Part shown: positions 27,324 through 33,137 of the stretch, one piece after another | Layout of the letters: every line of letters starts with the position of its first letter | How positions within the stretch are numbered: position 1 is the first letter of the stretch | Source of the DNA: Candidatus Microgenomates bacterium | GTDB lineage: Bacteria; Patescibacteriota; Microgenomatia; UBA1400; UBA12108 | Direction: 5' to 3' | NCBI GenBank assembly: GCA_003576945.1 | Contig: QEVC01000005.1 | Location: 1 to 53,575, forward strand | DNA: 53,575 bases | Translations under genes and position numbers: made by a program | Notes under the pieces: model-generated | Told to the model about the DNA's origin: nothing | What the model saw: only the letters and a program-made list of their open reading frames with translations | Databases searched by the model: none

Positions 27324-27923
27324 ATGCAAATCCGTGATCTTTACGACAAATACAACTTAATGCCACAACTAAGAGAGCATCAGCTTAGAGTGGGGGGTGT
27401 AGTTAGGCTAATTACAAATGATCACGACAGCATAGTGACGGCACTTGTTCACGACATGGGAAATATAGTTAAATTTGATCTTGGTAAATCTGGGCTGGCA
27501 GAGGATGAGCTAGAGAGATGGTTGGCAGAGCAAAAGCAAACTAGAGAAATGTACGGGACGGAGGCGCATGAGACTACCTACACAATGTTGAAAGAAGTTG
27601 GGATGACTAAATATGTACAGTACCTCAAGGAGGAAGGGAAAGCCTACCAGTGGGATGATCTGGATCAGGAGTTTTTTATTAACTTATCAAAACCTGCACT
27701 GCTGACGCTGTATGGCGATTTAAGGGTCGGTATTAATGGCGTTACGAGCATACAGGGTAGAATTGAAGATTTAGAGAGACGATATGGAGCACCACGACCA
27801 GAATCACCTTGGATCGAGAAGCTAGAATCATATGTACAAACCTTAACAATGATGGAAATTAAGAACATAAGAGAAGAGATGGTTGTTCCCCTTTTTGACG
27901 AGTTGTTGACAATAACCGTATAA
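27324..27923 (+). CDS. HD-domain protein (putative phosphohydrolase)
   Basis: A 199-aa protein with the HD pattern: His in LREHQLRVGGVV (about 18), then HDMGN (about residues 48-52) and a downstream Asp. HD proteins hydrolyse phosphate esters of nucleotides with metal help, but the substrate is not evident. The last codons overlap the proS promoter: the -35 (27895-27900) is in the gene and its TAA stop lies within the -10 TATAAT (27919-27924). Confidence 0.75.
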   Translation: MQIRDLYDKYNLMPQLREHQLRVGGVVRLITNDHDSIVTALVHDMGNIVKFDLGKSGLAEDELERWLAEQKQTREMYGTEAHETTYTMLKEVGMTKYVQYLKEEGKAYQWDDLDQEFFINLSKPALLTLYGDLRVGINGVTSIQGRIEDLERRYGAPRPESPWIEKLESYVQTLTMMEIKNIREEMVVPLFDELLTITV

Positions 27924-27924
27924 T
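27895..27924 (+). promoter_or_regulatory. Promoter of the T-box leader and proS
   Basis: TTGACG (27895-27900), an 18-bp spacer, and TATAAT (27919-27924). Predicted start of transcription is near 27931. The TAA inside TATAAT is the stop codon of the HD-domain gene. Confidence 0.75.
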
Positions 27925-27930
27925 GTAACT

Positions 27931-28092
27931 AATTGAAAAAGCGATGAAGGGGTTTCCCGCCCTGGAGCTGGATACGATGAGTATCCCGAGGTCACGCGAG
28001 AAGTGATAAAGTAAGTTAAACAGCGAGGTGGTAACGTCCGTTTGAAGACCCTTGCATGTATCCGAGTTATTGGGTGCGTGCAAGGGTTTTTT
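27931..28092 (+). promoter_or_regulatory. T-box riboswitch controlling proS
   Basis: The 3' half is a textbook T-box switch. Antiterminator: GCGAGG (28023-28028) pairs with CCTTGC (28050-28055), with a seven-base bulge TGGTAAC (consensus UGGNACC) whose TGGT pairs with the ACCA end of uncharged tRNA, plus an inner GTC/GAC helix. Terminator: ACCCTTGCA (28048-28056) pairs with TGCAAGGGT (28079-28087), then a T-run. The shared CCTTGC makes them mutually exclusive. The 5' half has base stem GCG(A)TGA/TCACGC and apical hairpin GGATAC/GTATCC. CCC or CCG (27985-27988), a Pro codon, follows the apical hairpin as probable specifier. Transcription of proS would rise when tRNA-Pro is uncharged. Confidence 0.88.
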
Positions 28093-28121
28093 GTACCTAA
28101 AATAATATGTAAGGAGAATAT

Positions 28122-29363
28122 ATGAAATACTCAAAACTATTTAGCAAAACTCTAAAGTCGGCGCCGGCTAATGCAGACACAGTTAATCACAAACTCTTAG
28201 TCCAAGCCGGATACGTAAGACAAGTGATGGCTGGCGTATATACCTACACCCCCTTAGGGCTTAGAGTACTTAACAAAATCAGTAACATTATTCGCGAAGA
28301 GATGAACACGATCGGGGGACAAGAAGTGCTCATGCCCCTACTGCACCCCAGCTCGATCTGGAAACAGACTGGAGGATGGGACAAAATCGATGTGCTTTTT
28401 AAGGTAAAGAGCCGAACTGGTCGCGACTACGCGCTAGCACAAAGCAACGAAGAAACAGTCACCCCACTGGTTAAAGAGTGGATCCATAGCGAGCGTGACC
28501 TCCCTCTTGCGGTATACCACATCAACTCCAAGTTCCGTGACGAGCTTAGGAGTAAGAGTGGCATATTACGTGGTCGTGAGTTTTTGATGAAGGACATGTA
28601 TAGCTGGCATTCCACACAAGAGAACTTTGACCGCTTTTACCAAATAGTAAAAGAGGCCTACTTTAAAATATTTAATCGCATGGGATTATCGGCTAAGGCA
28701 ACAGAAGCGTCGGGTGGAGCGTTTACTGAGAAAGTTAGTTATGAGTTTGAGGTACTATCTGAGGCAGGTGAAGCACACATTCTTCACTGCGAAAGCTGCA
28801 ACTGGTGTGTTAACTCAGATGACATAACTACATATAAAGCTGGTGAAGATTGTCCTAAGTGTGGTAAAGCCAAGCTAGAAGAAGCCAAGGCGGCTGAGCT
28901 AGGGAATGTATTTGACCTAGGCACAAAGTATACAAAAGCTTTTGACATTAGTATTAACAATGCCCAAGGTGAAAAAATATATCCAATCATGGGTTGTTAT
29001 GGAATAGGTGTATCGCGCACTATGGGAGTACTCGTCGAGACCTTTCATGACGAGCGTGGGATTATCTGGCCCGAATCGGTTGCGCCATTTAAAGTTCACC
29101 TCATCTCTCTTGCTGGTAAGAATGGTGAAGTCGCAAAAAGAGCTGATGAGGTTTACACAAAACTCACCCTCGCTGGCATTGAAGTACTATACGATGAACG
29201 AGAGAGTGCTGGAGCTGGAGCAAAACTCGCAGACGCGGACCTACTCGGCATCCCTTATAGAGTGGTGGTCTCAGAAAAAACGGGCGACGCTGTTGAGCTT
29301 AAAAAGCGGAGCGAAAAAGAATCAAAATTGGTCAGTACTGAAGAACTACTTAAGTCGCTCTAA
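28122..29363 (+). CDS. proS: Prolyl-tRNA synthetase without the large editing domain
   Basis: A 413-aa class II synthetase that charges tRNA-Pro. Motif 2 (FRDELRSKSGILRGREFLM, near 138-156) and motif 3 (GCYGIGVSRTMG, 291-302) are present, with a C-terminal anticodon-binding domain (from about 320). The usual bacterial insertion of about 180 residues between motifs 2 and 3, which edits Ala-tRNA-Pro, is reduced to a short segment with a Cys cluster CxxCxxC ... CxxC (Cys223, 226, 229, 244, 247) that may bind zinc. An AAGGAG site precedes the ATG. The upstream T-box senses tRNA-Pro. The stop overlaps the convergent gltX end by 18 nt. Confidence 0.96.
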   Translation: MKYSKLFSKTLKSAPANADTVNHKLLVQAGYVRQVMAGVYTYTPLGLRVLNKISNIIREEMNTIGGQEVLMPLLHPSSIWKQTGGWDKIDVLFKVKSRTGRDYALAQSNEETVTPLVKEWIHSERDLPLAVYHINSKFRDELRSKSGILRGREFLMKDMYSWHSTQENFDRFYQIVKEAYFKIFNRMGLSAKATEASGGAFTEKVSYEFEVLSEAGEAHILHCESCNWCVNSDDITTYKAGEDCPKCGKAKLEEAKAAELGNVFDLGTKYTKAFDISINNAQGEKIYPIMGCYGIGVSRTMGVLVETFHDERGIIWPESVAPFKVHLISLAGKNGEVAKRADEVYTKLTLAGIEVLYDERESAGAGAKLADADLLGIPYRVVVSEKTGDAVELKKRSEKESKLVSTEELLKSL

Positions 29364-30731
29364 GACAACATCCCGACCGAGAATGATCATTGACTCAGTA
29401 AGTGGCGGGCTCACTTTTTTGCCAGTGATGGCCAGTCTTAATGCGGCAAAGAATGGTCCATTCTTCCATCCCTTGGCTTTGACCGACTCGACGAGTTTGG
29501 TCTCGATCCCCTCTTTGGTCCAATCGCAGGCTGACAAAACCTCTTTGGCAACACTTAGATAAATTTGCTCCTCTTCGCTAAACTCTGGTGATGTTGGAGT
29601 GCGATAAAAGAAATCAGTTAATGACTCAAAATCGCGGAGCGTAGTTAAACGAGATTTGACTAAGGGCATTAGCGCTGGAAGGAGGTCAATTGGACAATCG
29701 GCTGGGATAAAGCCCGATTGTAAACGCTGAATTAATTCTTCGTCACTTAATGCGCGGATGTAGTAGCCGTTGTAATAGTTGAGTTTATCAAGATCATAGA
29801 TCGGAGCAGTTTTTGTTACACGATCTAAACTAAAAACTTCCAAAAATTCTTTGAGCGAGAAAATCTCTTTACCTTCAAGATGAGACCACCCCATGAGAGC
29901 CATAAAGTTGTTGAGAGCTTCTGGCAAGTATCCGCGATCGCGGTGTGAAAGGATGCTAACATCATTTTTGCGCTTGCTCATCTTACTTTTATCTTTGTTA
30001 CGTATAACTGGGAGGTGAGCAAAAACTGGTGGTTCCCATCCAAATGCAGCGTAAAGAAGAAGATGCTTAGGGGTACTACTGAGCCATTCTTCACCACGGA
30101 CAACGTGAGTAATCTCCATCAAATGATCATCTACAACCACAGCAAGATGGTAGGTAGGATATCCGTCGGATTTTATGAGAACTTGATCGTCGATTCCGGC
30201 GTTTTCGAATGCTACTTCACCGCGAATAGGGTCATGACAGATTGTCACGCCATCTTTTGGTACAGCCAAGCGGATAACAAATGGCAAATTGGACTGAAGA
30301 TTGGTCTGAATATCTGAATCCGTGAGAGTTCGACAGTGACCATCATAACGTGGTAATTGTTTGGCTTTTAGCTGTGATTGTCTAACTTTTTCTAATCTTT
30401 CCTTGGTACAGAAACAATAATACGCGTGTTTATTTATGACCAGTTCTTTTGCATACTTTTGATAGATATCGAGTCGCTCTGATTGTGTATAGGGAGCATG
30501 AGGCCCACCTAAATCTGGTCCTTCGTCGTGAGTATAACCGAGCCATTTCATGGCATCAAATATTACAGCGACGGCACCTTCGACGTAACGCTCGCGATCT
30601 GTATCTTCTATACGGATTAAAAACTGACCCTTGCCTTGGCGGGCTAGTGCAAGATTGCGCATTGCGATGTAAGCGGTGCCTAAGTGAGCAATGCCAGTCG
30701 GTGATGGAGCAATCCTAGTTCGAGTAGTCAT
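29346..30731 (-). CDS. gltX: Glutamyl-tRNA synthetase
   Basis: A 461-aa class I synthetase. The HIGH-type signature is APSPTGIAHLGTAYIAMRN (8-26) and the KMSKS loop is KSKMSKRKND (near 250). The C-terminal helical anticodon domain is complete. The CxC zinc-type region after HIGH reads YCFC. It may charge tRNA-Gln as well, because the window shows tRNA-Gln and many bacteria lack GlnRS; this is inference. TATAAT lies seven bases before the ATG, back to back with the promoter of the next plus-strand gene. Confidence 0.96.
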   Translation of the reverse strand: MTTRTRIAPSPTGIAHLGTAYIAMRNLALARQGKGQFLIRIEDTDRERYVEGAVAVIFDAMKWLGYTHDEGPDLGGPHAPYTQSERLDIYQKYAKELVINKHAYYCFCTKERLEKVRQSQLKAKQLPRYDGHCRTLTDSDIQTNLQSNLPFVIRLAVPKDGVTICHDPIRGEVAFENAGIDDQVLIKSDGYPTYHLAVVVDDHLMEITHVVRGEEWLSSTPKHLLLYAAFGWEPPVFAHLPVIRNKDKSKMSKRKNDVSILSHRDRGYLPEALNNFMALMGWSHLEGKEIFSLKEFLEVFSLDRVTKTAPIYDLDKLNYYNGYYIRALSDEELIQRLQSGFIPADCPIDLLPALMPLVKSRLTTLRDFESLTDFFYRTPTSPEFSEEEQIYLSVAKEVLSACDWTKEGIETKLVESVKAKGWKNGPFFAALRLAITGKKVSPPLTESMIILGRDVVLERLK

Positions 30732-31856: not shown

Positions 31857-33137
31857 TTAGGGTCTGAGTCGCTTAACATCGCGTGGGAGAAAGGTTGCCT
31901 CCTTTACGCTAGGCAGTCCGAGAATCTGGGCAACAATGCGAGCTGGGCCAATACCTACTCCACCATGTGGTGGGACTCCGTAGCGGAAGAAGCTGAGATA
32001 GTCTGATAAACCCTCTTCGGTTAATCCCTTTTCGGTAGCCTGAGCAAGTAGTTTTTCGATCCTGTGTTCGCGCTGCGCGCCGGTTGTAATCTCGACACCT
32101 TTGTAGAGTAGGTCAAACCCCTTGGTTAAGCCAGTCTCCTCGTCGCGCATGTGATAGAAAGCGCGGTGATCTTTGGGATAGTCGGTAATAAAGACAAACT
32201 CGCTACCTGACTCTTCTTTGACGATTTTGCATATACCACGCTCTTCGTCAGGAGAGAGGTCGCCGACTTTTTCGCTAGTGATGCCAGCTCGCTTTAATTT
32301 AGCTTTTGCATCAGCCAGACTGATACGAGCAAAAGGTACTGATATTTCTTCGTCGATCAGTCCTTTTGACTTTAATTTGGCAAAGCCAGATTTTAGCATT
32401 GCCTCTTCAGTGTCCATAACATCATGGTGACTAGTGATGTGAGCGATTTCAAAATCCCAGCCTGTGAACTCGGTCATGTGGCGGGTGGTAAAGCTTAGCT
32501 CGGCACGGAATACTGGTCCGACCATAAAGACTTTTTCAAAGCCACTCGCGATTGCCATCTGTTTGTAAAACTGAGGTGACTGAGCGAGGTAAGCCTTACC
32601 TTCAAAATATTTGACCTCAAAGACTTCGGCACCACTCTCGCTAGGAGCACTCATGAGAGCAGGTGAATATAGCTGGGTAAAAGAATTCTCGGAAAAGTAT
32701 TCCCTAATACCCTGCTCGAGCACAGTCCAGACCTGAAAGATTTTTTGAGACTCCTTCTTTCTTAAATCTAACCAGCGATAGTCAAAGCGCTTAGTGACAT
32801 CTACTTCTTCGGCGCCTTTTTCAGTGACTACTGGTATTGGGAGAGGAAGGGCGGTTGATTGTATTGTAATCTTAGCAGCATCAATCTCGACACCCTCTGG
32901 CACTTGCTTACTCTCTTTGACTAATCCCTCGACTTGGACAACTGATTCAACTGATAGGTCTTTGATCGACTCAAAAACTTCTTTATTCCAAACCCCAGTC
33001 ACAACCTGAACACTGCCGGTAACATCCCTAACTCGTAGAAAGGCAATTTTCCCTTGATTGCGAATAGAGTGAACATAGCCTGCGATAGTGACTGTTTGGT
33101 TCTTTTGGGTTAGGATAGAATTGATTGATACTCTCAT
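31857..33137 (-). CDS. aspS: Aspartyl-tRNA synthetase, archaeal-type, probably non-discriminating
   Basis: A 426-aa class II enzyme. It has an N-terminal OB-fold (15-105), then motif 2 (FRAELSFTTRHMTEF) and motif 3 (GIGPARIVAQ), ending FLPRDVKRLRP. It lacks the roughly 150-residue GAD insertion and C-terminal extension of the bacterial type, so it is the archaeal/eukaryotic form. His23 and Pro80 occupy anticodon-domain positions that in archaeal enzymes favour charging both tRNA-Asp and tRNA-Asn, which would need an amidotransferase. TATAAT (33150-33145) lies seven bases before the ATG and contains the dacA stop codon. Confidence 0.95.
   Translation of the reverse strand: MRVSINSILTQKNQTVTIAGYVHSIRNQGKIAFLRVRDVTGSVQVVTGVWNKEVFESIKDLSVESVVQVEGLVKESKQVPEGVEIDAAKITIQSTALPLPIPVVTEKGAEEVDVTKRFDYRWLDLRKKESQKIFQVWTVLEQGIREYFSENSFTQLYSPALMSAPSESGAEVFEVKYFEGKAYLAQSPQFYKQMAIASGFEKVFMVGPVFRAELSFTTRHMTEFTGWDFEIAHITSHHDVMDTEEAMLKSGFAKLKSKGLIDEEISVPFARISLADAKAKLKRAGITSEKVGDLSPDEERGICKIVKEESGSEFVFITDYPKDHRAFYHMRDEETGLTKGFDLLYKGVEITTGAQREHRIEKLLAQATEKGLTEEGLSDYLSFFRYGVPPHGGVGIGPARIVAQILGLPSVKEATFLPRDVKRLRP

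Follow-up and report, generated by a model that had tools for sequence, protein, structure and literature searches.

The canonical class I T-box, represented by Rfam model RF00230, has a long Stem I, which presents the specifier in a side bulge and ends in an apical double T-loop motif for the tRNA elbow, together with a Stem III and a terminator/antiterminator switch that contains the T-box bulge. A second kind has an ultrashort Stem I with the specifier in its apical loop; the ileS T-boxes of Mycobacterium tuberculosis and Nocardia farcinica are of this kind, reportedly as described by Sherwood in 2015 and as seen in structures 6UFG and 6UFM. These actinobacterial leaders are translational and hide the ribosome-binding site (PMC7583486), and TBDB limited its search for the short class to Actinobacteria and to truncated hits of class I (PMC7778990). 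We found no report of T-boxes in Patescibacteria in a literature search outside which most subscription papers and TBDB entries lay.

The locus described here lies in a 53,575-nucleotide stretch of DNA from a Candidatus Microgenomates bacterium (contig QEVC01000005.1), referred to below as the window, in which positions 27895-28121 are confirmed as a promoter, a T-box leader and an intrinsic terminator ahead of proS. We conclude with high confidence that the leader is a proline-specific T-box controlling proS transcription, and that it belongs to a terminator-type set with ultrashort Stem I and multiple specificities found across Patescibacteria.

The leader and its place among known T-boxes

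The features of the locus are these:

27895..27924, + strand, promoter: TTGACG (27895-27900), N18, TATAAT (27919-27924)
27940..27969, + strand, ultrashort Stem I, 30 nt; closing pair A-U, A-U, U-A and G-C across the four orthologues
27956..27958, + strand, specifier codon CCC (Pro) in the 7-base apical loop TTTCCCG; the next purine is G27959
27970..27986, + strand, Stem II, GGATAC/GTATCC with loop GATGA; 4 of its 6 pairs change on both sides in the four orthologues
27987..28006, + strand, Stem IIA/B-like pseudoknot: CG 27987-27988 with CG 27997-27998, and TCAC/GTGA, 27992-27995 with 28003-28006
28007..28022, + strand, purine-rich linker of 16 nt, no helix in the four orthologues
28023..28055, + strand, antiterminator: A1 GCGAGG (28023-28028)/CCTTGC (28050-28055), bulge TGGTAAC (28029-28035), A2 GTC/GAC
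28045..28092, + strand, intrinsic terminator, -32.6 kcal/mol: ACCCTTGCA (28048-28056)/TGCAAGGGT (28079-28087), then T6
28111..28116, + strand, ribosome-binding site AAGGAG, outside the terminator
28122..29363, + strand, proS (proline-tRNA ligase), 413 aa

Checked letter by letter, the promoter, the A1 helix with its seven-base bulge and the terminator with its T-run are all as the initial annotation had given them, and the antiterminator has an inner helix, A2, as well. The bulge lies between A1 and A2, and its TGGT is complementary to a tRNA ACCA end; after TGGN it reads AAC in the window vs. a consensus of ACC, which is found in two of the orthologous leaders, G001 and G002, the former also containing the textbook T-box AAGGTGGTACCGCG. 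The orthologous antiterminators read AGGTGGTACCGCG, GAGGTGGTACCGC and GAGGTGGTATCG. Antiterminator and terminator are mutually exclusive, as had been proposed, because both use 28048-28055, and on its own the antiterminator is a weak structure of -7.0 kcal/mol. Folding of the whole leader gives -61.8 kcal/mol (z = -5.6, with 0 of 200 shuffles as good), and z = -0.27 once the terminator is removed; the folding excess thus belongs to the terminator, so that single-sequence folding is no proof of the upstream part, for which comparative evidence is needed.

Stem I is formed by a closing helix, AGC/GCT (27940-27942 with 27967-27969), and an upper helix, GGGG/CCCT (27949-27952 with 27960-27963), and its base, GC-GAT-GA ... 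GA-GC, has a sequence that suggests a kink-turn. The initial annotation was right in expecting a proline-specific T-box with a short and unusual Stem I, and misplaced the codon, which it put after the apical hairpin: the CCCG at 27985-27988 combines the last bases of Stem II with the first strand of the pseudoknot, and the specifier is the CCC of the first hairpin's apical loop. Stem II itself is a plain 6-pair hairpin in which no S-turn is recognisable in the window, and its loop is invariant across the four orthologues. All four pairs of the second pseudoknot helix change on both sides in these leaders. The first helix, of 2 pairs only in the window, probably forms as well: complementary strands, placed as in the IIA/B pseudoknot, are present in 24 of 26 proline-type leaders, with a summed score of 232 vs. 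128.5 in shuffles (maximum 196, n=2000). A Stem III with 5'-RRRxG...AA flanks was not found in the four orthologues, where the linker takes its place in the leader.

With the actinobacterial ileS T-boxes the leader shares the short Stem I with apical-loop specifier and kink-turn or kink-turn-like base, followed by Stem II, a IIA/B or IIA/B-like pseudoknot and then the TGGN bulge domain. It differs from them in its plain Stem II with the GATGA loop and in its mode of output, since they sequester the ribosome-binding site whereas the patescibacterial set ends in intrinsic terminators, in the window with T6 and with AAGGAG left outside. The actinobacterial type, moreover, is described for ileS, while the patescibacterial set serves at least seven amino acids. 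With canonical class I the leader has in common the terminator/antiterminator switch, the T-box bulge, the kink-turn-like base and a C-ending specifier followed by a purine, but the long Stem I with side-bulge specifier is absent from the window leader, and with it the double T-loop motif for the tRNA elbow, as is Stem III. We have therefore filed this RNA as a terminator-acting T-box variant, not of the actinobacterial translational class.

As the initial annotation had suggested, the ProRS is reduced (Pfam detects no domains beyond the class II core and the anticodon-binding domain) and the host belongs with the Patescibacteria, its closest named relative being GW2011_GWF2_46_18 of the Microgenomates group (75% ProRS identity). 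Two further synthetase-like genes, recognised by reading translations, lie nearby on the - strand: a GluRS-like gene at 29346-30731, overlapping proS tail to tail on the opposite strand, and an AspRS-like gene at 31857-33137. The genome encodes tRNA-Pro genes with UGG and GGG anticodons, both with A73; an encoded ACCA end was looked for and not found, both genes lacking the CCA, which would come from a CCA-adding enzyme. The specifier CCC is complementary to the GGG anticodon and TGGT to ACCA with A73, so that pairing at both sites is predicted. The genome has a second member of the type:

G000:C30:2467-2591, - strand, second ultrashort T-box (L243): loop CTTTCCA (TCC, Ser), bulge TGGCACC, terminator

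The gene behind it appears on reading to be serS, encoding a SerRS-like protein, and the tRNA-Ser(GGA) of the genome has G73, which fits the TGGC of the bulge.

Orthologous leaders and covariation

A search with the ProRS returned 37 relatives, and a search with the leader DNA matched in G001, G002 and G004, which all belong to the family of the window genome. In all three the gene upstream of the leader is the same as in the window, and the leader precedes a csaA-like gene and then proS, with one extra gene between in G004. The four leaders were aligned over 123 columns, with 26 pairs in six helices. In this alignment 99% of cells are paired (36-51% in slid controls) and 11 pairs are changed on both sides, vs. 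4.6 in shuffles, none of 500 of which reach that number. The first hairpin has in each case a kink-turn-like base of the form GC-NNN-GA ... GA-GC, with a loop of TTTCCCG or TCCCCA, and the closing helix beside it covaries. Among 26 proline-type leaders, in an alignment fitted to the structure, 95.6% of cells are paired, including all those of the Stem I closing helix, and covariation is 0.613 vs. 0.163 +/- 0.013 in shuffles. Covariation in homologous leaders, one of the checks proposed for the T-box reading, is thus present in both sets.

In most lineages the proline T-box is separated from proS by a csaA-like gene for a tRNA-binding protein (L034, L033, L032, L112 and many other loci), which hints that the protein is a partner of the small ProRS. 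The window genome has lost csaA from this spot, its nearest homologue elsewhere being 37% identical. The promoter block of the window is retained in G001 and also in G003, where no leader follows it: there (L235, G003:C13:15100-15170) the csaA start codon is directly behind a promoter of the window type, and the T-box is cleanly absent.

The missing csaA, together with G003, where a leader was lost or never present behind the promoter, and the departure of the bulge (TGGTAAC) and pseudoknot from consensus, could be taken to mean that the T-box of the window genome is decaying and has no live regulatory role. We consider this improbable, as the helices are all intact and the terminator is strong, TGGT and CCC still fit tRNA-Pro(GGG) with A73, and the A1 and A2 pairs are kept in G001 despite 90% ProRS divergence.

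Spread and specificity of the ultrashort type

The covariance-model check suggested at the outset had a divided outcome: the window leader gave no match to RF00230 (cmscan, at gathering thresholds and at E<=10), while the orthologous leader upstream of csaA-proS in the same genus (G001:C10) matched with 49 bits and E=3.8e-10, below the 93-bit cut-off. The negative result in the window counts against a T-box, as do the departure of the bulge from consensus, the two-pair first pseudoknot helix, the lack of a recognisable S-turn and of Stem III, and the weakness of the antiterminator by itself; it is probably misleading, as RF00230 is dominated by the long Stem I. When the model was run over 287 sampled Patescibacteria genomes, it matched at E<=0.1 in 99 and above the Rfam cut-off in 9; canonical long forms do occur in the phylum, many of the matches having a long Stem I and preceding tyrS, argG, proS and other genes (identified by reading translations). 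One such, L052 (G362:C6), is a proline T-box with a long Stem I (GAA-CCT) that precedes proS in another patescibacterium; proS is thus served by both the long and the ultrashort form.

For the ultrashort type we built a covariance model, R1, from the four orthologous leaders (threshold E<=0.01). Matches came from 64 of the 329 genomes searched in the class, and from 36 of 380 genomes sampled across the phylum. RF00230, built independently of R1, matched at R1 coordinates in most of 20 R1-positive genomes, the two coinciding at G001:C10, G379:C53, G521:C3, G568:C15, G588:C2, G430:C25, G610:C26, G632:C43 and others. Its one match above the Rfam cut-off in these genomes was at another place than the R1 loci, and at gathering thresholds cmscan called none of the 20 ultrashort loci; a new covariance model would therefore add many annotated regulators. 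Among 80 named proS loci R1 found only GW2011_GWF2_46_18 and Woesebacteria RIFCSPHIGHO2_01_FULL_39_32, indicating a patchy occurrence of the proline T-box.

T-boxes are best known from Firmicutes, and horizontal transfer is held to be important in their spread (review PMC7583486), so that a recent acquisition of a Firmicutes T-box by this lineage might be imagined; the initial annotation had indeed called the distribution unusual and possibly due to transfer. The RF00230 matches at E<=0.1 in about a third of the sampled genomes do not support an unusual distribution. The type is found across Patescibacteria before many different genes and the order promoter-leader-csaA-proS is the same in G001, G002 and G004, an arrangement common to the family that makes inheritance the simpler account. 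Recent transfer is accordingly very doubtful, though a transfer dating back to the origin of the group may have occurred.

The specificity of the R1 hits was read with a rule blind to the downstream gene (closing helix, asymmetric loop, hairpin, and the last NNY of the loop before a purine), applied to all hits, and the downstream genes were named with NCBIfam. The loop codon corresponds to the amino acid of the downstream gene in 40 of 47 loci, vs. 15.5 on average and 27 at most in 50,000 permutations, a figure that is not a strict probability, as R1 was built from proline leaders and the loci share ancestry. Agreement within the non-proline loci is the cleaner test of the code, and there it is 16 of 20 (permuted mean 4.0, maximum 11; 50,000 permutations). 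The codons read stand for Pro, Ile, Val, Thr, Ser, Asp and Tyr, and include ATC before ileS, GTC before valS, ACC before thrS, AGC before serS, GAC before aspS, TAC before tyrS, CCT before proB and CCC before ornithine cyclodeaminase. Within the family, G005 has ATC ahead of ileS and GAC ahead of aspS, and G001 has TCC ahead of serS; in G217, ahead of ileS, the same Stem I element reads GCGATGAAGGAG-TCATCA-CTCCGTAGC. Three loci without the hairpin (L193, L203 and L229) were left out of the 47. Among the seven misses, two (L199 and L202) have inserts in Stem I, four (L215, L228, L230 and L231) are hits that lack an ultrashort Stem I and probably represent T-boxes with a long Stem I that the model truncated, and the last, L227 before alaS, does contain GCC in its loop. 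A specifier caller without the kink-turn constraint gave 30 of 49 and picked false hairpins; it was replaced by the constrained and still gene-blind rule.

The proline set consists entirely of proline genes: proS of both types, csaA-proS, proB and ornithine cyclodeaminase. The proline T-boxes before proB and ornithine cyclodeaminase (L190, L195 and L204) predict regulated proline synthesis in Patescibacteria. Ultrashort proline T-boxes also precede ProRS of the archaeal/eukaryotic type (TIGR00408; L179, L184 and L199), the switch being kept although the synthetase type differs.

The code also bears on whether the leader could act by ribosome-mediated attenuation, through a short leader peptide with Pro codons. 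A suitable reading frame does exist (ATG 27944-27946, MKGFPALELDTMSIPRSREK) and holds CCC and CCG, but it has no good ribosome-binding site and is unconserved, being frameshifted inside the Pro codons with an early stop in G001, starting with TTG in G002 and stopping after 15 codons in G004. The changes among orthologues preserve helices instead, and the loop codon varies with the downstream gene while its flanks stay constant; we reject attenuation as highly unlikely. Control of the terminator by a protein such as ProRS or a kink-turn-binding protein of the L7Ae type, with no tRNA input, is scarcely credible, for although the leader has a kink-turn-like element and L7Ae-type proteins bind T-box kink-turns (PMC7583486), it leaves unexplained the agreement of loop codon and TGGN bulge with the downstream gene and the tRNA.

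Proposed mechanism and implications

Comparison of the sequences gives the structure, specifier position, specificity code, terminator and distribution of the proline T-box; tRNA binding, the sense of the charging response and antitermination would follow by analogy with the known T-box mechanism (PMC7583486). Transcription would start near 27931, and the CCC in the apical loop of Stem I would be presented to the GGG anticodon of tRNA-Pro, with Stem II and the IIA/B-type pseudoknot bracing the codon-anticodon pair. The ACCA end of uncharged tRNA-Pro(GGG) would then pair with TGGT in the bulge and stabilise the antiterminator, and proS would be transcribed; charged tRNA-Pro would be unable to pair with the bulge, and the much more stable terminator would form.

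On balance we favour a broader view, in which transcription-terminating T-boxes with the specifier at the apex of an ultrashort Stem I form an old class of their own in Patescibacteria, for the most part unannotated and serving many amino acids. The proline subtype would be a further reduction of this class, its Stem II S-turn replaced by a GATGA-type loop and its Stem III dropped. If this is correct, the proline subtype would be the smallest transcriptional T-box known, and the elbow-binding motif would not be needed for speed on the time scale of the polymerase, contrary to the working rule by which a long Stem I carrying that motif is required of transcriptional T-boxes. The apical-specifier type, known from a single gene in a single phylum, would extend to a second phylum with at least seven amino acids served there, which bears on which form of the T-box is ancestral. 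It would also place predicted sensors of tRNA charging, ahead of essential synthetases and the proline-making genes proB and ornithine cyclodeaminase, in ultrasmall and mostly uncultured bacteria whose gene regulation is little known.
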